Of a DNA stretch of 64,000 bases, positions 28,725 to 43,525 are shown one piece after another. Under the pieces are notes generated by a model. That model did no database searches. It was not told the origin of the DNA and was given only the letters and a program-made list of their open reading frames with translations. The stretch is from NCBI GenBank assembly GCA_029565675.1, contig JAKQNP010000062.1:1-64000 (forward strand), in the 5' to 3' direction. Source of the DNA: a bacterium. Lineage in GTDB: Bacteria > Zhuqueibacterota > Zhuqueibacteria > Residuimicrobiales > Oceaniaggregativiventaceae. Numbering within the stretch: the stretch's first letter is position 1; every line of letters starts with the position of its first letter. The position numbers and the translations under genes were made by a program.

Positions 28725-29231
28725 TCAGGGGCTTTGTCGGTCGCTTGTTTGCAGAATGCTGCTCATGAGCAGGGCATCTTCGCCGGTTGTTGGATAATAG
28801 TTGGGCCGGACACCGACCACGCGAAAACCAAAACGTCGATAAAGGCGAATCGCCTCGAGATTCGATCGCCGCACTTCAAGATGAGCCACCACAGCTTGTT
28901 GCCGGCGTGCCTGGTCGAGGAGATTCCCCAGTAACCAGGCACCGATTCCACGACGGCGATATTCTGCCGCCACTGCCAGATTGGCGATATGAAATTCGTC
29001 TGCCAGCAACCAGCAAACTGCATAGCCGACCACCAGATCATTGATCACTGCTACATAACAGAGCGCATACTTGTTGTTCTCGATCTCCCAGCGGAACGAA
29101 TCTCTGGACCAGGGATCAGAGAACGCTGCGTGTTCCAGCTCGAGTATGCGATCGAGGTCTATGAGGCACATCGGCCGCAAAAGAAAATCTGTTTTTGGGG
29201 CTGGTGGCTGTTTGGCGGTTGCTTCTGGCAT
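28725..29231 (-). CDS. rimI: ribosomal protein S18 alanine N-acetyltransferase RimI-like
   Basis: 168 residues with a GNAT fold: LRPMCLIDLDRILELE, FSDPWSRDSFRWEI, YAVCWLLADEFHIANLAV, the acetyl-CoA loop YRRRGIGAWLLG (R-x-x-G-x-G/A), and RRSNLEAIRLYRRFGF. Family RimI members acetylate the S18 N terminus. The adjacent tsaB-tsaE suggests a link to the t6A cluster. The ATG lies 3 bases after the tsaB stop. Confidence 0.9.
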   Translation of the reverse strand: MPEATAKQPPAPKTDFLLRPMCLIDLDRILELEHAAFSDPWSRDSFRWEIENNKYALCYVAVINDLVVGYAVCWLLADEFHIANLAVAAEYRRRGIGAWLLGNLLDQARRQQAVVAHLEVRRSNLEAIRLYRRFGFRVVGVRPNYYPTTGEDALLMSSILQTSDRQSP

Positions 29232-29234
29232 CGT

Positions 29235-29891
29235 TTAAAAATAAGATTTTGGCCGACCGGCGATAAAATCGGCCAGATAATTGGGTTCCAGCGTGTCGGA
29301 ATCGGGTATGGATCCCTGCGCTGTTTTTTGCCGCGCCAGTTGCGCGACTGCTTTGGCATCGGCCAGGCAATATGGCATCGGCACCTCTCTGAACGGGTGG
29401 CCGGCAGGCAGCAGCTCGCATTGTCCGGTAATCCGGCAGTCAGGCGGAAAATAATTCACCAGCTTGTCGCGGTCAACAATGGCCACCGGCTGCAGCTCGC
29501 GCAAATCCACACCGTCATAGAGGCCGGCATAGACTTGCTCGGCCTTGGAGCGCAGCAGAACGCCGAGCGGGTTGGTGCCAGGCGGTGCTGCTGCGGCGAG
29601 CGCCTGCAGAGTCGGCACCGGGATCACCCGAATGCCAAACGGCATTGCCAAACCTTTTGCCAGCGACAGGCCGATGCGCAGGCCGGTAAACGAACCCGGG
29701 CCGGTCGAAACGGCGATGGCCGACAATTCTTGTGCGGAAATCCCGCAATGGTCGAGCAACATGCGCACCGCATCGGCGATGCACCGCTGATGGGCATTTT
29801 TAATGTTCAGTCGATATTCTGCCAGCAGGTCTTGTCCGTCGAATAAGGCCATGCTGCAGATTTGAGTCGCTGTTTCAAGGGCGAGAAGCAT
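29235..29891 (-). CDS. tsaB: tRNA N6-threonylcarbamoyladenosine synthesis protein TsaB
   Basis: About 218 residues with the ASKHA-type fold: LALETATQICSMAL, GPGSFTGLRIGLSLAKGLA and the GQCELLPAG region. TsaB is the partner that stabilises TsaD in the t6A37 modification of tRNAs reading ANN codons. ATG 29891 gives the normal start; TTG 29900 lacks a better ribosome site. Sits between rimI and tsaE. Confidence 0.94.
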   Translation of the reverse strand: MLLALETATQICSMALFDGQDLLAEYRLNIKNAHQRCIADAVRMLLDHCGISAQELSAIAVSTGPGSFTGLRIGLSLAKGLAMPFGIRVIPVPTLQALAAAAPPGTNPLGVLLRSKAEQVYAGLYDGVDLRELQPVAIVDRDKLVNYFPPDCRITGQCELLPAGHPFREVPMPYCLADAKAVAQLARQKTAQGSIPDSDTLEPNYLADFIAGRPKSYF

Positions 29892-29924
29892 ATCGCGCAA
29901 GGTTTATCACCAGAATTTTCGAGT

Positions 29925-30395
29925 TCAACCCAAACAGTACAATTCGATTTCACGCCGATTTTCCCATTCCGGCGCAAATCGCCACAAAAAATGCATCTCA
30001 TAGTGCGACGGCGGCAACAAGTGGGCGGCTACCTCCGGCCATTCGATCAGGCAGATGCCGTTGCCGAAAAAATAGTCCTCCAGTCCGAGTTCCGCCAGTT
30101 CTTCGGCAGCACCGATTCGATAAAAATCAAAGTGATAAATCGGCAGTCGGCCGCGGTATTCGTTGACCAGGGTGAAAGTCGGGCTGGTGATGGGCTCGTC
30201 AACGCCCAGACCACGACACACACCGCGGATGCAGGTTGTCTTGCCGCTACCCAGATCCCCATGCAAAGCGATGAGATCGCCGGCCTGCAAACGGTTGGCC
30301 AGGCGGCCACCAAAATTCTTCGTGAATTCGGCGCTCTCGCTGGTGAATTTTTCGATCAGGGTCTTTTCCCGCTTTTCTGGTCTCATCCGCCTCAT
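29925..30395 (-). CDS. tsaE: tRNA threonylcarbamoyladenosine ATPase TsaE
   Basis: 156 residues: Walker A GDLGSGKTTCIRG, SPTFTLVNEY, HFDFYRIG and the CLIEWPE box, all typical of TsaE. It is the ATPase that cycles the TsaBD complex. Starts 4 bases after the porX stop, so it is translated from the same message. Confidence 0.95.
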   Translation of the reverse strand: MRRMRPEKREKTLIEKFTSESAEFTKNFGGRLANRLQAGDLIALHGDLGSGKTTCIRGVCRGLGVDEPITSPTFTLVNEYRGRLPIYHFDFYRIGAAEELAELGLEDYFFGNGICLIEWPEVAAHLLPPSHYEMHFLWRFAPEWENRREIELYCLG

Positions 30396-30399
30396 CCAC

Positions 30400-31962
30400 T
30401 CACTTGCTGTCCAGAGTGATCAGCGGCAAAATCATTTCTTCCAACGAAATCCCGCCGTGTTGAAAGCTGTCCGCATAATAGTTCAAATAATAGTGATAGT
30501 TGGTCGGATAAACAAAATAATAGTCTTCTTTTGCGATCAGGTAGTTGCTGTTGATCCCGCGCGCCGGCAAATGGTAGGTGCTGGGATCTTTGATGAGCAT
30601 CGCATGTTTGCTGTCGGCTTTGATATTGCGGCCATATTTGTAGCGAAGGCTGGTTGTCGTCTCGCGATCGCCGATCACCTTGGCGCCGCGCAGGCCCCGT
30701 ATACTGCCGTGGTCAGAGGTGATAATCACCCGGGCACCCGAATCCGAGAGTTCGCGCAACGCTTCATAGATGTGAGAGTGTTCGAACCAGGATTTTGTCA
30801 TCGAACGGAAAGCCGCTTCGTTGGGGATCATTTCTTTGATCAGATTGGATGAACTGCGCGAATGCGCCAGGATATCGACAAAGTTGATCACAATTGCCGA
30901 TAAGGGAACAGACGCGAATTCGCTGATTCGTTTGCTGACCGCGCGGGCTTCCTGCAGGTCGAGAATTTTTGCGTATTTGGTATTCGATTTCAGCCCAACC
31001 CGCAGACGCTCCAGTTGATTGTCCAAAAGCTGGTGCTCGTGCCGATTGCGGCTAAAATCGTCGTTTTCGGTGCCTTCCAGATAGAGGTCGGGAATCGATT
31101 TCTCGATGGCATCAGGGAAAAGGCCGCTGAACAGCGCATTTCGGGAGTAGGGAGTCGCGGTCGGCAGTATGGAGAACTGGTAATCGCGGCTGATGCGAAA
31201 ATAGTTGTGCAACAAAGGCTCGACGACCATCCAGTGGTCGAGGCGCAGATTGTCGATGATGATGAGAACGGTGTTGATGCCCTCGCGCACTCCAGGGAGA
31301 ACCGCCTGTGGGATGACGTCCACCGACATCTTGGGCCGATCGCTGGAATGGATCCATTCGACATAGTTGCGCTCGACAAAGCGGGCGAATTCGATGTTGC
31401 ATGCGCGTTTTTGATCCTGCAAGGTTTGCTGGAGCCCCAGATCGGGATGTGAATCCAACTCGACATCCCATTCGGACAAACGGCTGTGGATATCGATCCA
31501 ATCGCGCCAATCCATGGGGCTGAGCAGCTGTCTGGCGATCTGGTTGAACTCGACTGCATAATCGCGCGAAATCCGCTCGCCGGTGATTTTGTTTTTCTCC
31601 AGCTTTTTTTTGCACACCAACAAGATCTGGCTGGGATTGACCGGCTTGGTCAGGTAGTCATCAATTTTATTGCCGATCGCATCTTCCATGAGCTGTTCTT
31701 CTTCGCTCTTGGTAATCATGATCACCGGCGTTCCCGGGGCAAGAGTTTTCAGTTCCCCGAGAGCCGTCAAACCGTCCATGCCGTTCATCATCTCGTCAAG
31801 CAGAATCAGATCAAAGGTCTGTTTTTTAACCAGTTCGATTGCGTCTTCCGCATTGGTCAGGGGTGTGACCTGGTAACCTTTTTCCTGCAGAAAGATGATG
31901 TGTGGTCTGAGCAATTCGATTTCATCATCCACCCACAGCACATGTCCCTTGTCTTCAGTCAA
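30400..31962 (-). CDS. porX: PorX-type response regulator with PglZ (alkaline phosphatase-like) domain
   Basis: 520 residues. Receiver domain: DDE at 12-14, phospho-acceptor D56 (LILLDEMMNG), TKS and KPV. The C-terminal part is a PglZ domain (INTVLIIIDNLRLDHW, LPTATPYSRNALFSG, VIITSDHGSIRG). In Bacteroidetes PorX, with histidine kinase PorY and an ECF sigma, controls type IX secretion; its PglZ part cleaves oligonucleotides. That pathway fits the sorting-domain proteins at 12171 and 60668. The start is TTG, 5 bases after AGGAGG. It begins the porX-tsaE-tsaB-rimI unit. No PorY is seen here. Confidence 0.93.
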   Translation of the reverse strand: MTEDKGHVLWVDDEIELLRPHIIFLQEKGYQVTPLTNAEDAIELVKKQTFDLILLDEMMNGMDGLTALGELKTLAPGTPVIMITKSEEEQLMEDAIGNKIDDYLTKPVNPSQILLVCKKKLEKNKITGERISRDYAVEFNQIARQLLSPMDWRDWIDIHSRLSEWDVELDSHPDLGLQQTLQDQKRACNIEFARFVERNYVEWIHSSDRPKMSVDVIPQAVLPGVREGINTVLIIIDNLRLDHWMVVEPLLHNYFRISRDYQFSILPTATPYSRNALFSGLFPDAIEKSIPDLYLEGTENDDFSRNRHEHQLLDNQLERLRVGLKSNTKYAKILDLQEARAVSKRISEFASVPLSAIVINFVDILAHSRSSSNLIKEMIPNEAAFRSMTKSWFEHSHIYEALRELSDSGARVIITSDHGSIRGLRGAKVIGDRETTTSLRYKYGRNIKADSKHAMLIKDPSTYHLPARGINSNYLIAKEDYYFVYPTNYHYYLNYYADSFQHGGISLEEMILPLITLDSK

Positions 31963-32334: not shown

Positions 32335-34098
32335 ATGGAAAACACAGAGAAATTGTTTCAGCTCATCCACAACGGTATTTTGTTGCCCGAACCGCCGCCG
32401 TTCAGAGAGCTCTATCTCATGGCGCGGGGCAAGAAAGTGATGTTGACGCCAAAGCAAGAAGAGATGGCGATAGCCTGGTGTCGCAAAATCGGCACTCCTT
32501 ATGTCAACGATGTGGTCTTTATCCGCAATTTTCTTCAGGATTTCAGCCGTGAACTCGGCATTGCTCCGGTCCTGCGGCTCGACGAGATCGACTATGCAGC
32601 GGTACTGGAAGCAGTTCTTGCCGAACGAGCGGCCAAAGAAGCGATGAGCAAGGAAGAAAAGAAACGACTGGCTGCAGAGCGCAAGTCTGCGCGCGAAGAA
32701 TTGAAAGAAAGATACGGGTTTGCGATAGCCAACGGCCAGCGTATCGAATTGGCCAATTACATGGCTGAACCGAGCGGCATTTTCATGGGGCGCGGAAAAC
32801 ACCCCTTGCGCGGCCGCTGGAAAGAAGGGGCGACCCAGTCAGATGTGACCCTCAATCTCAGTCCTGATGCACCACCGGTTCCTGGGCAGTGGTGCGAAAT
32901 CGTTTGGCAACCGGACTCTTTGTGGGTCGCGCGATGGGAAGACAAACTCACCGGCAAGCTTAAATATATCTGGTTGCACGATACGGCCCCAATCAAACAA
33001 GCCCGCGAGGCGCAAAAATTCGACAAAGCGATCGAACTCTCGTCAACGATTGAAACGGTTCGCGAAGCGATTCTGCAAAATTTGACCAGCGACAATGCCA
33101 AGCGCCGGCGTATCGCCACTGCCTGTTATTTGATCGATGCCCTGTGCTTGCGGGTCGGCGATGAAAAAGATCCGGAGGAGGCCGATACCGTCGGTGCCAC
33201 CACTTTACGGCCGGAACACATCAAGCTGCATGACAACGGCGTAGCCGAATTTCGTTTTCTCGGCAAAGACTCGGTTTTGTGGCATAAAAAAATTCAGCTG
33301 CCGCAGATCGTACTGGACAATTTGCGCCAGTTGTCTGCTGCTGCCAAGCCGTCGAGCAACGGCAAAAAAACCGCTGCCGGCAAAAAACCGCAGCTATTTT
33401 ACGATATCAGCAGCCGCAATGTCAACGAATTCCTGCAGCAATTGATGCCGGGTCTGACCGCCAAAGTCTTTCGTACCCATCATGCGACCAATGCAGTCCT
33501 GACCAGTTTGCACGAGTCGGCGATCCTGCCAAAAGATCCCGAGTACCGCAAATGGGAAGCTGCCGTGCAGGCCAACACCCAGGCTGCGATTCTGTGCAAC
33601 CATACCAAACAGGCGCCGGCAAACTGGACTGAGCGCAAGAAACGATTCCGCGACCGCGAAAAGAGCGCGCGTGAGCGAATTTCCGCTCTGCAAAAAGAAC
33701 TGAAACGGCTTAAAGAGTCATTGCCGGTTTTGAAGCGCGAGGCGCGGGCACGCATCATCGCCGCCAGGGGCAAAGAAAAAAAGACGCAAGTGCGCGAACG
33801 CTATGAAATGCGCATCGCCGGCCTGGAAAAACGCATCACCGATGTGCGGCTGCGTGAAGAAAAAGCTCATCTGGCGTTGGGCAAGATTCAAACGCAGGCT
33901 GCTATTGCGATGAACAACCGATCCTGGAATCTCGGCACCAGTCAAAAATCCTACATCGATCCGCGCGTCTATTACAATTGGGGGAAAAAAGTAGATTATG
34001 ACGTGCTGGAAAAATATTATTCCAAACAGCTGCAGCGCAAGTTCATGTGGGTTAAAGAACAGGATCCGGATTACGAGCCAGAAGAGGAGGAAAATTAG
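32335..34098 (+). CDS. eukaryotic-type DNA topoisomerase IB
   Basis: 587 residues with the whole layout of eukaryotic topoisomerase I except the N-terminal tail. Core: GIFMGRGKHPLRGRWK, DVTLNLSPDAPPVP, KLKYIWLHD. Catalytic residues, by family alignment with human Top1: R273 (CLRVGDEK), K311 (FLGKDSV), R380 (AKVFRTHHAT), H423 (AILCNHTK) and nucleophile Y540 (SYIDPRVYYNW). A charged coiled-coil linker (about 430-525) precedes the Tyr. It should relax supercoils by a 3'-phosphotyrosine intermediate. Bacterial type IB enzymes known to most readers are much shorter (about 300-350). ATG 32335 is chosen over TTG 32320. Single gene with its own promoter. Confidence 0.95.
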   Translation: MENTEKLFQLIHNGILLPEPPPFRELYLMARGKKVMLTPKQEEMAIAWCRKIGTPYVNDVVFIRNFLQDFSRELGIAPVLRLDEIDYAAVLEAVLAERAAKEAMSKEEKKRLAAERKSAREELKERYGFAIANGQRIELANYMAEPSGIFMGRGKHPLRGRWKEGATQSDVTLNLSPDAPPVPGQWCEIVWQPDSLWVARWEDKLTGKLKYIWLHDTAPIKQAREAQKFDKAIELSSTIETVREAILQNLTSDNAKRRRIATACYLIDALCLRVGDEKDPEEADTVGATTLRPEHIKLHDNGVAEFRFLGKDSVLWHKKIQLPQIVLDNLRQLSAAAKPSSNGKKTAAGKKPQLFYDISSRNVNEFLQQLMPGLTAKVFRTHHATNAVLTSLHESAILPKDPEYRKWEAAVQANTQAAILCNHTKQAPANWTERKKRFRDREKSARERISALQKELKRLKESLPVLKREARARIIAARGKEKKTQVRERYEMRIAGLEKRITDVRLREEKAHLALGKIQTQAAIAMNNRSWNLGTSQKSYIDPRVYYNWGKKVDYDVLEKYYSKQLQRKFMWVKEQDPDYEPEEEEN

Positions 34099-35900: not shown

Positions 35901-37952
35901 ATGCGACATCTTTTGCTGGCGGTTATGCTAATCGCTTCTTTTGGAACTCTGTTCGCCAAAGAAGCATCAATCAACGGCACATGGGAACTCGTACCCACGA
36001 TGTGTGAAAATGTTGATCTCAACACCCGCATCGACTTGACCGTTGAAGCTGATGACGGGCAGGCAGCTTTGATTTTCAGCCGTGGTCAACGAGGTCGCCC
36101 GGATACCCTGAAGCTCAATATCGATGGCAAGCCGAACAGAATTCCTGTTCGAAGCAAGTCTTCGATTACCACGCGATTCTCTGGAATTCATCTGGTGATG
36201 GGATTTGATCGGTTGATCACTGCGGGATGGCGGGATGATGGACGTACGCTGTGGCTGGAAGAGCAGGTGAAAGCGGAGATTTCGCAGGGCACGGCAACGC
36301 TGAAAGAAAACCATTCGTTCACGGTGTCCAATGACGGCGCTTTTCTCCGCTATCGCATCGATCGCGTTTCGCGGCCGCAACAACCGGCAGCGCTTTATGT
36401 TTTCAAGGTCAAAGGCAGTTTGCAGGCTCGCATGATGGCTCTGCAAGACGACTGGCTGGTGCAGGAAGGTCTGCAAGATCAGGTTTTGTTGATCGGCCTG
36501 CAGGGGCTGGTCAATCGCTATGGTGCCAACTTTTATCTCATCTATCCCGAAACCTGGCAATTCACCTACAGCAAACGTCTATATGAGTGGTATCGCGATG
36601 AGCGAGGCTATACTTTTGAAGAGTTGAGCACCATTGAACAGGCACTGCAAGCTTTTCGCGATAGGATCAAAGGTTATGTGGTTTGGGATAAAAACGTGCG
36701 CACCTCATTGACGGTGGCCTTGACCATCGCTGGTCTGGAGGATGCGGTGGTCGTCAGTGCAGAGCAGGTACCCATGCTGGACTCGCTTGGCTTTCGGGCG
36801 GTTGAAGACTTGCGCGGCAAGTTTACGGGAATGAACGATGCCGAGATCTACGGATGGGCAAAGGATCGGTACTGGTCGCGCTGCAGCCGCAAGTATTTGA
36901 TCTGGCTGGGCGGCCATGCCGGCAGGGAAATGAAACCTGGAGTGGCGGACTGGGGAGTTGCCAACCGCGTCTTTTTCCAGGATCTTTCGACCGATCCCAA
37001 GCACACAGAGGAATATGAAATGGCCAAGGGACTGCTGGCCGAAATGGACAAAGACGCTCTGATTATGGGTTGGCATTCCTACGCCAAGGACCGCGAGAGT
37101 CAACACGTTACTTTGTGTTCAAGTTACGGTTTGCCGGTGGAAGGGTTGCACAGCATCCCCAATGTCAGTTTTGAACACCATGTCGGTTTTTCAGAAGGTT
37201 TCACCTTTAAAAACAATCACAATATCGATCCGAACAAGAACTACACACCGGAGAAAAAAGTCTATCTGGCATGTATACAAACCGACGGCATCGGCATCGG
37301 TGCCTGGTTGAAACCCGGACGAGGTGAAATTCCCTATGCCTGGGAAACGCTGATGAACTACAGCTGGTTGGTGCCCAGTCTGCTGGAGTTTTTTTACGCC
37401 ACTTCCACACCCAACGATTATTTTATCGGTGCGCTTTCCGGTCCTGGTTATATGTATCCCAAAGCGGTGCCGCCTGACCAGTTGCCCGGTCTGATCCGGC
37501 GGGCCGATTCACTGATGAAAAAACTCGACCTGCGCGTTTTTGACATCATGGATCATTCTGTGCATGGACCCCAGGAAGAATACACCGATCTGACCCGATC
37601 GGTAGTCGATGCCTATTATGAAAATATGCCGGAGGCCATCGGATTCGTTAACGGCTACGGCCCAGCCAACACTTTTGACGTTCGCAACGGCAGACCTTTG
37701 ATATCGTTTGAATACTATTTGTCGCCTACTATTTCTGTGACAGAAGCCAGGGATGATTTGCTCGAACTGGCCAGGCTGAATGAAGCGCGGCCTTACTTTT
37801 TGCTGCTGCACATTCGCGAAACCAGCGATGTGGCGCGAGTCAAATCGATTCTCAATCAGTTGCCTGAATCGTTCGAGCTGGTTCCGTTGGATGTTTTCAT
37901 CAGAATGGCCGGCAAGAATCCGACCTTCACCCGTCGGATGATCGAAAGATAG
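35901..37952 (+). CDS. exported GxGYxYP-domain protein (putative glycoside hydrolase)
   Basis: 683 residues. Signal peptide (MRHLLLAVMLIASFGTLFA), a beta-rich N-terminal part (about 22-165), then the GxGYxYP domain with the namesake GPGYMYP near residue 514 and conserved ALYVFKVKGS, WLVQEGLQDQ, LIWLGGHAGREM, GWHSYAKDRESQHV. This family is classed as putative glycoside hydrolase by fold and context; activity is not proven. AGGAGG precedes the ATG. It heads a cluster with a lipoprotein, an ABC uptake system and a BNR protein, supporting a role with external glycans. Confidence 0.85.
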   Translation: MRHLLLAVMLIASFGTLFAKEASINGTWELVPTMCENVDLNTRIDLTVEADDGQAALIFSRGQRGRPDTLKLNIDGKPNRIPVRSKSSITTRFSGIHLVMGFDRLITAGWRDDGRTLWLEEQVKAEISQGTATLKENHSFTVSNDGAFLRYRIDRVSRPQQPAALYVFKVKGSLQARMMALQDDWLVQEGLQDQVLLIGLQGLVNRYGANFYLIYPETWQFTYSKRLYEWYRDERGYTFEELSTIEQALQAFRDRIKGYVVWDKNVRTSLTVALTIAGLEDAVVVSAEQVPMLDSLGFRAVEDLRGKFTGMNDAEIYGWAKDRYWSRCSRKYLIWLGGHAGREMKPGVADWGVANRVFFQDLSTDPKHTEEYEMAKGLLAEMDKDALIMGWHSYAKDRESQHVTLCSSYGLPVEGLHSIPNVSFEHHVGFSEGFTFKNNHNIDPNKNYTPEKKVYLACIQTDGIGIGAWLKPGRGEIPYAWETLMNYSWLVPSLLEFFYATSTPNDYFIGALSGPGYMYPKAVPPDQLPGLIRRADSLMKKLDLRVFDIMDHSVHGPQEEYTDLTRSVVDAYYENMPEAIGFVNGYGPANTFDVRNGRPLISFEYYLSPTISVTEARDDLLELARLNEARPYFLLLHIRETSDVARVKSILNQLPESFELVPLDVFIRMAGKNPTFTRRMIER

Positions 37953-37986
37953 AAGCGACCGATCTTTGTCTGTCAGTTCGCTGTCT

Positions 37987-38014
37987 AGCGGCCGGGCGTC
38001 TGTGTCCGGCCGCT
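37987..38014 (+). terminator. hairpin after the GxGYxYP gene
   Basis: 9-bp stem AGCGGCCGG (37987-37995) with CCGGCCGCT (38006-38014), 10-base loop. Only a short T-run follows (AATTTTC), so it may be an RNA-stability or pause hairpin. Confidence 0.5.
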
Positions 38015-38214
38015 GGCAATTTTCAGCGAGGTGCCATTTTCTCTTGCATCGATTTTTTAAAATCTGTATGTTATCGCGTCATGACCTCTGCGCGGCCTGC
38101 CCCGCAGGAACTTTCACGCCACGAGTTATCGGTCACCCGACATGGCGTCGAACAGATCTATTACATCGAAAATGATTCTCCAATCGGCAAACCAAAGCAA
38201 AGGAGAACCAAGAT

Positions 38215-38775
38215 TTGAAAATTCGTCTCGGTTGCCTCGTGATGGCGGTATTGGTGGTTGCTTGTGCCAACAAATCCGTCACGGTCAGCTATCCGGAAAA
38301 ATTTCAAGGACTCACCCAGCTGACTCTGGCCTCGTTGACCAAGAACGTCAGTTTTACCGAAGAGATCAACAAGCGGGTCTTTCTCTTCTTTCGTTCGCAA
38401 GCCCGGGTTGCGGTGACCTCGAACGTGACCTTTGATTTTTACCTCGATTTTGAAAAAGACGGCTATCGAGTTGAATTTGCAGACCAGGACAAAGCGATGC
38501 ACTTTTTTGCACCTCCGATTCGCGTAAAGAAACCGGTGATCAATCATTCGTCGGTGAGTTATCCCGCCAGCGGTCTGCTGATCAATGAAGATTATGAGGC
38601 GGTGAAGATCCTCGAGAGTTTAACCGACCGGTTTATCGAAGAAGGCAAAAAATCGTTACAAGATTCTGTTGTGATAGCGAAATGCCACTCCCAACTGCAC
38701 GACTTTTTGCTGCAGTTTAGTCAGGATCTCGGTTATTCGCTTGAGTCGATCGCCATTCAATTCGCTGAGGAGTGA
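38215..38775 (+). CDS. DUF4230-like lipoprotein
   Basis: 186 residues from TTG 38215, which has AAAGGAG about 8 bases upstream. Lipoprotein signal with lipobox VVAC (about 14-17). The mature part (VTFDFYLDFEKDGYRVEF, FFAPPIRVKKPVI, GLLINEDYEAVKIL) follows the pattern of DUF4230 proteins, which are membrane-bound and of unknown role. The gene stands between the GxGYxYP gene and the ABC operon and may be part of it. Confidence 0.65.
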   Translation: MKIRLGCLVMAVLVVACANKSVTVSYPEKFQGLTQLTLASLTKNVSFTEEINKRVFLFFRSQARVAVTSNVTFDFYLDFEKDGYRVEFADQDKAMHFFAPPIRVKKPVINHSSVSYPASGLLINEDYEAVKILESLTDRFIEEGKKSLQDSVVIAKCHSQLHDFLLQFSQDLGYSLESIAIQFAEE

Positions 38776-38826
38776 ACTTGCTGTGGCCATTCATCCCGCA
38801 ATCCGAAACGTTGGTGCATGTTGCTG

Positions 38827-40308
38827 ATGAACAAAAAACTCGTGGTCATTCTTTTTGCCGCTGTCTATTTCTATTGTTTCTCCTGTCAGGATTCTGATAA
38901 TCAGTCAAAAGATTCCTCCCGGCAGAACACCCTTTTTGTCAGCATAGGCATCTATACTCCTGGAACGCAACTGGCGTTTGGTGAACCGCTGCGCGCCAGT
39001 GCCGACATCGCAGCTGAATATTGCCGTTTACATCCCGGAGTCAATATCCGTTTCTTGCAGTCTGCCTATGTCTCAGGGTCGCAGGAAGGCGAATGGTTGA
39101 AGACGCAATTGGTCGGCGGCATTGCGCCCGACATTATCGGGCAGAATGCCGAAGTGGCCTGGGCCGATGTCGATAAGGGGTGGTATATCGCACTGGACGA
39201 CTATCTGCAGCAGCCCAATCCCTATGTGCCGGGCAATGAGCGTTGGATCGATCAATTCGACAACCAGGCGATGTTCAATGCCAAACGAGCTCCTGACGGC
39301 AAGATTTATTGTCTGTCGATCGATGTGGTGGAAACCGGGATCTTTTATAACAAGACACTGTTCGACGAATTGGGATTGCAGGTGCCAAAAACATGGGCCG
39401 AGTACATCGCTCTGCAAGAGGTCCTGCTAAAGCACGGCTATACACCGATGACTTCGCCGACTAGCCTGGCTTCGGATTGGGGACAGGATGTCATTTTCGA
39501 TATGCTCTACTTCCCGATTATTGAACATCTCGATGTGCAGCCTTCTGAAGAAAACCAAAGCGGATATTTGGTCCATTATTTAACGGCCAAGGAATTCATT
39601 TTCCTTTTTCAAAAAGGTTATTTCACCCGCCGCGATCCGCGTTGGCGCGAAACCTATCGTTTGCTCAAACAGTGGCGCGGCTACTGGGGCAAAGAGATCA
39701 AATACAGCGATACCTCCCGGTTTTTTCTGACCAAACGCGCTGCCACCGTTTGGGAGGGGAGTTGGTTTGCCCGACGGGTGTTTCTTGATCCTTTTATCGA
39801 CTTCGAATGGGGGATATTCTATCTGCCGCCGATCACCGCGGAGAGCAGCCCCTATGGCCAAGGGGTCGAAGCTTCGGTTATCGGCGGAGCCGCAGTCCAA
39901 CTGCATGTGACAGAATCCGCCGTCCTTTATGACCATCTCGACACCACGATCGATTTTTTGCGTTTTTTTACCGCCCCGGAAAATTTCAGCAAGGTGATCA
40001 ATGAAGCCTTGCTTTATTTGCCCAACATCCATGGCGTTGATTCGCCGAAAGAATTGCAGCCGATCCGTGAAATATTTAGCCGGCGCTATTGTACGGTCAA
40101 ATTGTTGGAGAATTTTGACGCCAAAACCAAAGCACGTTGGCGCCGAATGCTCGATCTCTACCTTAACGACGGTATCTCTTTGGATGATTATCTGCAGGAA
40201 TTGGAAGCGATTTTTACCGCTTATCGCGACGAACAGGTTGTACGACAGAATTGGAATTTCGATGAATACGAAAAAAAGTGGCAGCAAAACGGGCTGGAAG
40301 TGGATTAA
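38827..40308 (+). CDS. ABC transporter extracellular solute-binding lipoprotein (family 1)
   Basis: 493 residues with lipobox YCFSC near residue 21. Fold of family 1 sugar-binding proteins: FVSIGIYTPGTQLAFG, IAPDIIGQNAEVAWAD, WIDQFDNQAMF, KIYCLSIDVVETGIFYNKTLFDELG (quoted in parts: VVETGIFYNK), WEGSWFARR. Probably carries an oligosaccharide to the permease pair downstream. ATG 38827 is chosen (38818 is in frame); neither has a strong ribosome site. It overlaps the permease start by 47 bases. Confidence 0.9.
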   Translation: MNKKLVVILFAAVYFYCFSCQDSDNQSKDSSRQNTLFVSIGIYTPGTQLAFGEPLRASADIAAEYCRLHPGVNIRFLQSAYVSGSQEGEWLKTQLVGGIAPDIIGQNAEVAWADVDKGWYIALDDYLQQPNPYVPGNERWIDQFDNQAMFNAKRAPDGKIYCLSIDVVETGIFYNKTLFDELGLQVPKTWAEYIALQEVLLKHGYTPMTSPTSLASDWGQDVIFDMLYFPIIEHLDVQPSEENQSGYLVHYLTAKEFIFLFQKGYFTRRDPRWRETYRLLKQWRGYWGKEIKYSDTSRFFLTKRAATVWEGSWFARRVFLDPFIDFEWGIFYLPPITAESSPYGQGVEASVIGGAAVQLHVTESAVLYDHLDTTIDFLRFFTAPENFSKVINEALLYLPNIHGVDSPKELQPIREIFSRRYCTVKLLENFDAKTKARWRRMLDLYLNDGISLDDYLQELEAIFTAYRDEQVVRQNWNFDEYEKKWQQNGLEVD

Positions 40309-41194
40309 GTTCGTTCCCCTTTACAGCTTGATCTTGCCGACTTTTTTACTTCTGGTGGTCTTTAATTATTACCCGGCTTTCTTGGCTTTTTTTCGCTCCT
40401 TGTATGAATGGGATGTGGGAGGGGAAGCGATTTTTGTCGGCTTGCGAAATTTTAAAGAACTTTTTCACGATCCTGTCTTTCGCAAGAGCGTCATCAATAT
40501 CAGCAAGCTTCTGGTTTTTATTATGGTGGCAAACCTCTCCGTGCCGCTGTTGGTGGCAGAATTGATTTTTCTGGTGCGGTCGCAGAAAGTCAATTACAGC
40601 CTGCGCGTCCTGTTCTCGTTGCCGATGATGATACCGCCGATTGTGATTTGGATGCTGTGGAAATTCATCTATTCCGATGCCGGTATTCTTACGGTGCTGT
40701 TGGAACAAGTTGGCAAGCCTGAATGGATTTATGGCTGGTTAAGCCATCCGCGCACAGCTTTGGCCGCAGTCGCCTTTTCCGGGTTCCCTTTTGCGGTCGG
40801 ACTGAATATTCTGGTCTATTATACCGGCCTGACCCAGATCCCACAACCCATTCTGGAGAGTGCTGTTTTGGACGGCGCCGGTCAATGGCAAATTTTCTGG
40901 CATATCCATCTGCCGTTGTTGCGCAGTTCAATCAAACTTCTCACTGTCTTGACGTTGGTCGGCGTTTTGCAGGGATTCGAATCTGTCTACGTTCTGACCG
41001 GCGATGGCGGGCCAGGTTATGAAACCATCGTACCGGGTTTGCACATGTTTTTTAACGGATTCAGCTACAACCGCATGGGATATGCCTGTGCCATTGGGGT
41101 GATGCTCTTTACCGTCATGCTCCTTTTTACTCTGCTGAGTCAACATCTGTTGCGCAGCGAAACCGATTTTACCGCCCAGAGGAGAAAAACCTAA
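40262..41194 (+). CDS. ABC sugar transporter permease, MalF/UgpA-like
   Basis: 310 residues from ATG 40262, inside the end of the binding-protein gene; longer in-frame starts would only add out-of-frame sequence of that gene. Six or so membrane helices and the cytoplasmic EAA loop (ESAVLDGAGQWQIFWHIHLPLL, quoted in part: SAVLDGAGQWQIF). Imports the ligand with the MalG-like partner at 41250. Ends with HLLRSETDF, a charged tail. Confidence 0.92.
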   Translation: MNTKKSGSKTGWKWIKFVPLYSLILPTFLLLVVFNYYPAFLAFFRSLYEWDVGGEAIFVGLRNFKELFHDPVFRKSVINISKLLVFIMVANLSVPLLVAELIFLVRSQKVNYSLRVLFSLPMMIPPIVIWMLWKFIYSDAGILTVLLEQVGKPEWIYGWLSHPRTALAAVAFSGFPFAVGLNILVYYTGLTQIPQPILESAVLDGAGQWQIFWHIHLPLLRSSIKLLTVLTLVGVLQGFESVYVLTGDGGPGYETIVPGLHMFFNGFSYNRMGYACAIGVMLFTVMLLFTLLSQHLLRSETDFTAQRRKT

Positions 41195-41249
41195 TGCACG
41201 CGCACCTGCAAAATCCGCTGGTGCAGATCAGGCGACAAGAGGAGTGAAC

Positions 41250-42080
41250 ATGGCAACGGACAATAAAATGCGCTGCACCGCATACTTTCTGCTTGGATTG
41301 ATCCTGCTTCTGACCTTTTTCCCTTTGTGGTTTATGCTGGTGACCTCTTTTAAATCGGTTTTTCAGTTTTACCACAATTTTTGGTGGCCCAGCTGGCCGT
41401 TGTACTTGAGCAATTATATGCGCGTCTTTAAGGTCATCTATCCCTATATTTTAAACAGCATCTTTACCACCATCGCTTCGGTTATTGGTATAGTCTTTTT
41501 GGGTGCTCTGAGCGGATTTGTCTTTGCTCGTTTTTGGTTTCCGGCCAAGCGCCTTCTCTACTATGCGATTATCGGTCTGATGATGCTGCCGTGGATTTTG
41601 ACCCTGGTCCCGGCATTCATGGTGGTCAAAAAGTTGGGGATGATCAACACATTTTGGGTGCTGATTTTGCCCTATATTGCCAGCGGCCAGGTGCTGTCGT
41701 TTTATATGTTCCACAACTTTTTTTGTTCATTGCCCGAGGAACTCTTCGAGTCGGCTCGTCTGGATGGCGCCGGGGTATTTCAGCAATTTTATCATATCGG
41801 CGCCGCTCTTTCCAGACCGCTGATCGGGCTGGTCGCAATCGTCAGTTCACTATCGGTCTGGAACAATTTTATTTGGCCTCTTGTCACCACTTCCGATGAG
41901 CGACTCACCGTGCTCACGGTCGGAGTCATGCGCTTCAACGTTGCTTATACCAGCGGAGCGATCGATTACGGCCAACTCTTCGCCGGCTACACCCTGGCGG
42001 CTCTGCCGCTTTTGGTCCTTTTTCTGTTTGCCACCCGGCAGTTCATGGCCGGACTCACCGCCGGGGCTTTGAAGGAGTAG
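41250..42080 (+). CDS. ABC sugar transporter permease, MalG/UgpE-like
   Basis: 276 residues. EAA loop ESARLDGAGVFQQFYHIG and the C-terminal VMRFNVAYTSGAIDYGQLFAGY, typical of the second CUT1 permease. ATG 41250 follows GAGGAG by 5 bases; GTG 41244 overlaps the ribosome site. No ATP-binding subunit gene is present anywhere near, so a shared MsmK/UgpC-type ATPase encoded elsewhere must drive the system (inference). Confidence 0.92.
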   Translation: MATDNKMRCTAYFLLGLILLLTFFPLWFMLVTSFKSVFQFYHNFWWPSWPLYLSNYMRVFKVIYPYILNSIFTTIASVIGIVFLGALSGFVFARFWFPAKRLLYYAIIGLMMLPWILTLVPAFMVVKKLGMINTFWVLILPYIASGQVLSFYMFHNFFCSLPEELFESARLDGAGVFQQFYHIGAALSRPLIGLVAIVSSLSVWNNFIWPLVTTSDERLTVLTVGVMRFNVAYTSGAIDYGQLFAGYTLAALPLLVLFLFATRQFMAGLTAGALKE

Positions 42081-42154
42081 AAGGGCGGCACGATAGGCAT
42101 TCTGGCCGCTTTGCCAGAGATCATTCATTTGGTTTCCCAATCCAATGGCCTGCA

Positions 42155-43525
42155 ATGAAAAAAGATACCATTTTGTTTCTATCGGTTGCTTTGCTGTTCA
42201 GTTGTGAGCGGCTTGTCAAACCGCCCGTCAAACAAATAGGTATTGCCGGTATCGATACGCTGTCGATTCGCGGATCTACACGCGCCACCTCCTATGATAT
42301 GAGCAACAAAATCATTCAGGCGGATGGCAAGATCTTTGTCTGTTGGCTCGACCATCCTTCCGATATCCAGATCAGGGCTTTTGATACGCAGAAAGAGAGG
42401 TGGAGCGATTCTGTTCTCCTCGGCCAGGGAACAGACAATCATGGCGGTCCGGCCTTGACTATGGATAGCCGTGGCACTCTCTATGCGGTCTATGGTCCCC
42501 ATCACGGTTCTTTTCAGATCAGCCGTTCGCGCCAGCCATTCTCAATTGCAGAATGGGAAAAACTGCCCGACTTTGGCGAAACTGCCACCTACCCCAGTCT
42601 CATCTGTGATCCCCAGGATCGGCTGCATCTGACCTACCGGGGCCTCGAACAACCTTGGAAGCTCACCTATCAATGTCGAGCACAAGACGGCGAGTGGAGT
42701 GCGCCGCGCGCTCTCGTCAGCGCAGCAGTGGATTCGGGATACACCCAATTCGGCAATCCGTTGGCGATTTCGGCCGACGGGTCTCTGCACCTTGCCTTCC
42801 ATATCTATGACCAACAGCCCCCAGGCGGCAAGGCTGTTGGTTATCTGTGTTCGCGCGACGGCGGCGAGACCTGGCAGAACAGCGATGCTCAGGTTCTCGG
42901 ATTGCCGGTCAAACCGGATTCACCCTGCATGATCGAAACCGGATCGGGCCTGGACATGCGGGTCAATGCCCTTGTGGTCGATCCCGATGGCAATCCATGG
43001 GTTATGGTGAGCCATTTGGAGACAAAGCCCAGAAAAGTTTTGCTGTGGCATCGCCAGCGGAATTGCTGGCAAAAAATCGATTTGTTGCCGGTTGTGCAGA
43101 GCTTTTTGCCCGATGTTGAAGTGCTTTATGGCGGCCTGACCTTCAGCCGCGACAACATGCTCTATGTGACGACCACGATACAACCTATCGGCACTGAGAG
43201 GTTCTGGGGGGGAGAGAAGCTGGAAACCATTCTGCTGGTCTCTGCCGATGGCGGTCGTTCTTTTCGCTGTTTGCCGATTTCAGATCCCTCTGATGGTGTT
43301 CCCAACTGGCAACCGAGCATCGAAAGGCCCTACTCTGGCCAGCCGATCGCGATGCCGACTCTGCTCTACACTGCGGGAAAAGTCGGCCAGGGAGTGAACG
43401 ACAGCACGGTCACACAGGTTGTCTTTGTTCGCCTGGCATGGACCGACGGACCGACCGAATCAGAAAGTCAGATCATGCCGAACAACCGGGAAGTGGCGAA
43501 TCAAGGAACTGTATATGGCCGATGA
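42155..43525 (+). CDS. BNR-repeat lipoprotein, possibly a polysaccharide lyase-like beta-propeller
   Basis: 456 residues with lipobox LLFSC. Repeated SxDGGxxW/F Asp-box-like elements (SADGSLHLAFH, SRDGGETWQNS, SADGGRSFRC) and HGGPALTMDSRGTLYAVYGPHH show a BNR beta-propeller as in the BNR_4 family, relatives of PL24/PL25 ulvan lyases and sialidases. A catalytic pair cannot be assigned. Position after the ABC genes suggests it trims the imported glycan. It overlaps the GT51 gene by 11 bases. Confidence 0.75.
   Translation: MKKDTILFLSVALLFSCERLVKPPVKQIGIAGIDTLSIRGSTRATSYDMSNKIIQADGKIFVCWLDHPSDIQIRAFDTQKERWSDSVLLGQGTDNHGGPALTMDSRGTLYAVYGPHHGSFQISRSRQPFSIAEWEKLPDFGETATYPSLICDPQDRLHLTYRGLEQPWKLTYQCRAQDGEWSAPRALVSAAVDSGYTQFGNPLAISADGSLHLAFHIYDQQPPGGKAVGYLCSRDGGETWQNSDAQVLGLPVKPDSPCMIETGSGLDMRVNALVVDPDGNPWVMVSHLETKPRKVLLWHRQRNCWQKIDLLPVVQSFLPDVEVLYGGLTFSRDNMLYVTTTIQPIGTERFWGGEKLETILLVSADGGRSFRCLPISDPSDGVPNWQPSIERPYSGQPIAMPTLLYTAGKVGQGVNDSTVTQVVFVRLAWTDGPTESESQIMPNNREVANQGTVYGR

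Follow-up and report, generated by a model that had tools for sequence, protein, structure and literature searches.

A long-form (eukaryotic/archaeal-type) DNA topoisomerase IB native to bacteria of candidate division KSB1

Type IB topoisomerases of bacteria (TopIB) have been described as short, viral-like enzymes (PMC2621148, 2008; PMC8748870, 2022). The long enzyme, TOP1, is ubiquitous in BAT archaea and Eukarya and is found in some Asgards as well (PMC12395588, 2025), a distribution that has been used in an argument on the root of Archaea (PMC12395588). Relaxation of supercoils of both signs, together with the clamp motion, has been documented for TOP1 and for CsTOP1, the enzyme of Caldiarchaeum subterraneum (PMC8748870). 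The DNA analysed here, a stretch of 64,000 nucleotides referred to below as the window, comes from a member of candidate division KSB1, the phylum now named Zhuqueibacterota (PMC11683472), and encodes a long-form TOP1. Searches of the full-text literature, with most subscription journals and preprints outside their scope, returned nothing for KSB1 together with Top1 and nothing for Chloroflexi together with topoisomerase IB, and the KSB1/Zhuqueibacterota articles covered by text search leave topoisomerase unmentioned. Because of that scope it is only provisionally that the bacterial distribution of long-form TOP1 appears undocumented; the enzyme itself is of a known kind, and sequence databases certainly hold such bacterial proteins already. 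The reading in which I place high confidence is that this is a working long-form TOP1 that would have entered once from an archaeal lineage near Asgard TOP1, been inherited vertically in one KSB1 order, and serve as a swivelase beside TopA and a type IIA enzyme.

The gene is intact and full length, as the earlier note on this DNA had claimed, and all three Pfam domains score above their curated cut-offs (160 bits against 25 for PF02919; Table 1). An NCBIfam scan of the protein gave weak coiled-coil matches only. In favour of the ATG start, the copy in the congener L001 keeps both this codon and the upstream stretch GATTTGGAAT; in most other relatives the start lies about six codons downstream, at GTG or TTG. 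The bacterial promoter pattern reported in the earlier note was not recovered: a consensus scan of the plus strand upstream of TOP1 found no sigma-70-like promoter, and its promoter-like matches were near chance.

Table 1. Coordinates, in the window, of TOP1, its domains and its conserved neighbours.
Feature	Position	Strand	Details
Long-form (eukaryotic/archaeal-type) DNA topoisomerase IB, TOP1	32335..34098	+	587 aa, uninterrupted ORF, ATG
Topoisom_I_N (PF02919) cap domain	32359..32976	+	aa 9-214; Pfam 7.3e-47
Topoisom_I (PF01028) catalytic core	32989..33699	+	aa 219-455; Pfam 1.2e-60; R273, K311, R380, H423
Linker, basic, two antiparallel helices	33625..33918	+	aa 431-476 and 480-528 (predicted)
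Topo_C_assoc (PF14370) C-terminal domain	33880..34077	+	aa 516-581; Pfam 2.6e-16; nucleophile Y540 after S539
Response-regulator receiver and PglZ domain protein	30400..31962	-	divergent neighbour of topIB
tsaE-, tsaB-, rimI-like genes (names by homology)	28725..30395	-	syntenic block past response regulator

The five catalytic residues lie exactly where they had been placed, R273, K311, R380, H423 and Y540 aligning with human R488, K532, R590, H632 and Y723; in the cap domain, R153 aligns as the equivalent of human R364. This pentad is invariant in all 27 aligned bacterial homologues, the Tyr being counted in 26 of 26 because a frameshift shortens one row. Between the core and the C-terminal domain, the charged coiled-coil linker noticed earlier is borne out by its two predicted helices and by 30 K/R against 14 D/E. 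The AlphaFold2 model, for which 20 homologues were used, has a mean pLDDT of 90, mostly above 90 in the linker helices, and Foldseek matches this predicted model to human TOP1 over its whole length (E 2.7e-41, TMq 0.74-0.75). The match of the model to CsTOP1 has a TM-score of 0.43 and an rmsd of 27 A at 43% identity, a low TM-score that, for a predicted model, fits the open form of the CsTOP1 structure (PMC8748870).

TOP1 is native to this bacterium and occupies a long-settled place on its chromosome. The enzyme is found in 23 of the 82 genomes of the phylum: 20 of the 22 in the window's order and all three of family f6, which belongs to another order within the same class; it is absent from the remaining 57. 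The two genomes of the order that lack it are 80% and 86% complete. The sampling of bacteria for the long form covered KSB1/Zhuqueibacterota and Chloroflexota, and in the latter phylum only 4 of 400 sampled genomes (about 1%) have it, so the earlier view of this layout as uncommon in bacteria stands. In seven loci of the window's order the receiver-PglZ gene lies divergently beside topIB, and beyond it the order of genes (tsaE-, tsaB- and rimI-like, SurE, GuaA) is maintained as far as the contigs extend. This neighbour shows that the locus is native; any functional tie with topIB would be putative at most.

Could archaeal or eukaryotic DNA have been binned into bacterial genomes instead? The named carriers are all metagenome assemblies (the window's own is 4.43 Mb, 95% complete and 1.1% contaminated), and the nearest kin of TOP1 are archaeal. 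Against this, a congener (L001, JAFGJN010000095.1) carries a copy 78% identical to that of the window, the gene recurs through the order, the contig that bears it in genome G042 is 2.6 Mb long, several independent genomes keep the same neighbours, its GC resembles that of the surrounding DNA, and the bacterial copies form a clade of their own. Common synteny and the distribution through the order thus refute contamination in practice, leaving it vanishingly improbable, in agreement with the earlier note, which had taken the DNA as genuinely bacterial.

Named homologues of TOP1 come from KSB1, Calditrichota-labelled, Chloroflexota, Asgard and Bathyarchaeota genomes and from one Aenigmatarchaeota assembly. 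The last of these (L017) is a DPANN assembly of 0.7 Mb with a long-form TOP1, and its DPANN group is not among the TOP1 holders in the cited topoisomerase literature. No match to TOP1 was found in phage records or, with six peptide patterns, in IMG/VR contigs, and plasmid records contain short TopIB only; carriage by mobile elements was rejected on these grounds. Replacement of a short TopIB by TOP1 was likewise rejected, since a PF01028 search of the phylum genomes without PF02919 found no TopIB. Several relatives have additions at the C-terminus: TOP1 of genome G044 (L008 4541-6944, plus strand) is fused in frame to a C-terminal NUDIX domain, and three Chloroflexota proteins (L010, L051, L053) carry extensions of about 100-170 aa, of which those of L010 and L053 were scanned and contain no Pfam family above cut-off. 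In the Asgard genome G805, a TOP1-like protein (L105) has the cap domain, and the catalytic Lys, Arg, His and Tyr are missing in the alignment; it is possibly a fusion, a frameshifted copy or a decayed one. On a Bathyarchaeota contig a lone receiver-domain gene (L014 3473-3859, minus strand) and TOP1 also point away from each other, and a RimI-like gene lies close by; this may be coincidence. Elsewhere in the window, at 35901-43525 on the plus strand, a gene for a GxGYxYP-domain protein is followed by those for an ABC-type solute-binding protein, two permeases and a BNR-repeat protein, a set that looks like a carbohydrate-use cluster.

The origin of the gene was addressed with a quick tree (85 rows, with short TopIB as outgroup) and a careful tree (63 rows, LG+C20, with linker and outgroup left out). 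The long forms of KSB1 and Chloroflexota make up a single clade, with support of 100 in the quick tree and 100/100 in the careful one. In the careful tree they join the Hermodarchaeum-type and Thor/Loki-type Asgard sequences in a clade of 34 rows (100/99), which is itself nested among archaeal rows. In both trees eukaryotic TOP1 attaches on the side of Thaumarchaeota and Caldiarchaeum. Furthermore, among PDB sequences the best match is Caldiarchaeum TOP1 at 438 bits, ahead of human TOP1 at 249 and the short Deinococcus enzyme (2f4q) at 33. Judged from sequence and tree, then, the kinship of this TOP1 is archaeal, not eukaryotic, and of the earlier label "eukaryotic-type" the layout stands and the kinship does not. 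A direct transfer from a eukaryote could draw on the domain layout and the residues shared with human TOP1, but a tree forced to unite bacteria with eukaryotes is 34 log-likelihood units worse and is rejected by the AU test (p=0.0135), here with two eukaryotic rows, human and Leishmania (large subunit only), whose letters were taken from printed alignments. With the best PDB match archaeal and the eukaryotes on another side of the tree, such a donor has next to no probability. The earlier note had set its proposal against a placement within a long-known bacterial clade with no special link to eukaryotes: the clade is indeed bacterial and without such a link, and its being long known is not borne out, as no report of it was found in the literature searched.

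An old transfer of TOP1 from archaea to bacteria, followed by vertical inheritance, is the most likely history. I infer both the direction and the exact donor, because the trees are effectively unrooted and the clade of Asgard sequences next to the bacteria is supported at only 78/76; rooting with short TopIB was set aside, the outgroup branches being too long to trust. In the reverse course, the long form would be old in bacteria and the Asgard version derived from it, or both would come from an unsampled lineage. The bacteria (100/100) and the long-linker/Hermodarchaeum-type Asgards (78/76) are reciprocal groups, as that course would have it, and the Asgard copies are themselves patchy, three of them (L087, L089, L092) being placed elsewhere, with Bathyarchaeota. 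However, the bacterial range is narrow (one KSB1 order and one family, plus the few Chloroflexota), the archaeal range is wide (100 of 250 sampled genomes in the phylum to which Bathyarchaeota and Caldiarchaeum-like genomes belong, and 38 of 119 in Asgard archaea), and the joint clade sits within archaeal rows, so I consider the reverse course unlikely. Within the bacteria, a clade of KSB1 copies apart from Chloroflexota is neither shown nor rejected (p=0.44), which is compatible with different numbers of transfers between bacteria.

What would such an enzyme do in a KSB1 cell? The mechanism proposed here draws in part on what is generally known of type IB enzymes. In the arrangement of human and Caldiarchaeum TOP1, the cap and catalytic lobes would clamp round duplex DNA, R273, K311, R380 and H423 would activate the scissile phosphate, and attack by Y540 would leave a nick with a 3'-phosphotyrosyl bond. 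The free DNA end would then swivel, with the basic coiled-coil linker controlling the rotation, and once religated the DNA would have lost supercoils of either sign with no need for ATP. By analogy with described TOP1 enzymes, ATP-independent relaxation of both signs is most likely for the window's protein. In the cell it would be a swivelase that removes the supercoils made by transcription and replication. Family searches of the window's genome found one TopA-type gene and one GyrA/ParC-type gene and found no Topo VI A gene; in view of this inventory, TOP1 would probably relax positive supercoils in addition to these enzymes.

Retention of TOP1 cannot be put down to the single type IIA gene, which is usual throughout the phylum: most genomes have one whether or not they have TOP1. 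In the absence of any correlation, the idea that TOP1 makes up for the lack of a second type IIA enzyme was rejected. A link between TOP1 and histones was also rejected, family PF00808 having no member in any of the 82 genomes. As to the type IA enzymes, the TopA frames of the window's genome (G000:C5:108688-109908) and of its order-mates encode about 850-920 aa, longer than the roughly 740-790 aa seen in most of the phylum, and many order-mates have a second type IA gene, which is missing from the window's genome. It is improbable that the fold has been kept for a different job, for instance nicking in DNA repair or recombination, adjusted by the neighbouring PglZ response regulator. The divergent pairing with the receiver-PglZ gene in seven loci, the longer linker and the NUDIX fusion in one relative would suit such a job, but divergent neighbours need not share a function, the NUDIX fusion is a single case, and the receiver-PglZ neighbourhood is absent in L004, L006, L025 and Chloroflexota.

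In all 26 bacterial rows that have the position, Ser precedes the catalytic Tyr, at the site of human N722. Asn occupies this site in wild-type human and Leishmania TOP1, and Ser is found in the camptothecin-resistance structure 1rrj. Because Ser replaces Asn, I predict from the sequence that the window's TOP1 would respond weakly or not at all to camptothecin. More than this residue must be involved, since CsTOP1 keeps Asn and yet required the human linker and C-terminus for a camptothecin response (PMC8748870). The linker exceeds those of the human and Caldiarchaeum enzymes in length, and the kinetics of the window's TOP1 may differ as well. A more ambitious account, possible but on balance doubtful, would have an undocumented single, old transfer from Asgards to bacteria yield a fixed core gene of the order, its product, a eukaryote-like swivelase, being a main relaxer of positive supercoils in cells that have no PF00808 histones and possess one TopA and one type IIA enzyme; this swivelase would be a camptothecin-insensitive variant with a long linker.

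The monophyletic bacterial long-form branch is a lineage for inclusion in arguments of the kind made about the root of Archaea. It shows that long TOP1 crosses domains and can be durably retained beside a normal bacterial set of topoisomerases. Finally, these enzymes, naturally long in the linker and with Ser in place of human N722, offer material on the roles of linker and residue in rotation and in the camptothecin response.

Among known systems, the nearest lineage in the tree is Asgard TOP1 (Hermodarchaeum L013 and its kin, and the Thor/Loki type), at about 48-50% identity to the window's protein, all from archaeal hosts. The spacing from catalytic His to Tyr agrees with this placement: it is 117 in the window's TOP1, 115-117 in nearly all bacterial rows (111 in one) and 119 in Hermodarchaeum TOP1, which also shares the NHTKQAPK motif but has Ala before the Tyr where bacterial rows have Ser. 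Most long-linker Bathyarchaeota have a spacing of 154 and most Thor/Loki types one of 210, a linker about 93 residues longer than the window's. CsTOP1 (PDB 6z01/6z03) is like the window's enzyme in domain order, in the catalytic pentad and in starting just before the cap, without a long N-terminal extension; it differs in its shorter linker (spacing 67), in the Asn before its Tyr and in its thermophilic host. Human TOP1 (core, linker and C-terminal part, PDB 1k4t/1rrj) shares the three Pfam domains, the pentad, the coiled-coil linker and the fold, but is only about 30% identical, lies in a separate clade, has N722 in place of Ser and a linker shorter by 26 residues (spacing 91), and carries a long charged N-terminal extension that is missing in the window's TOP1, whose cap begins at residue 9 of 587. 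Short TopIB (Deinococcus 2f4q, variola 2h7g and the plasmid copies L141-L143) has a homologous catalytic core, about 28% identical in the plasmid enzymes by tblastn across residues 207-440, but is some 310-360 aa long, remote in the tree and without the Topoisom_I_N cap and coiled-coil linker, both of which the window's 587-aa protein has. The bacterial TOP1 thus adds a new branch to a familiar enzyme family and does not amount to a system of a new kind.
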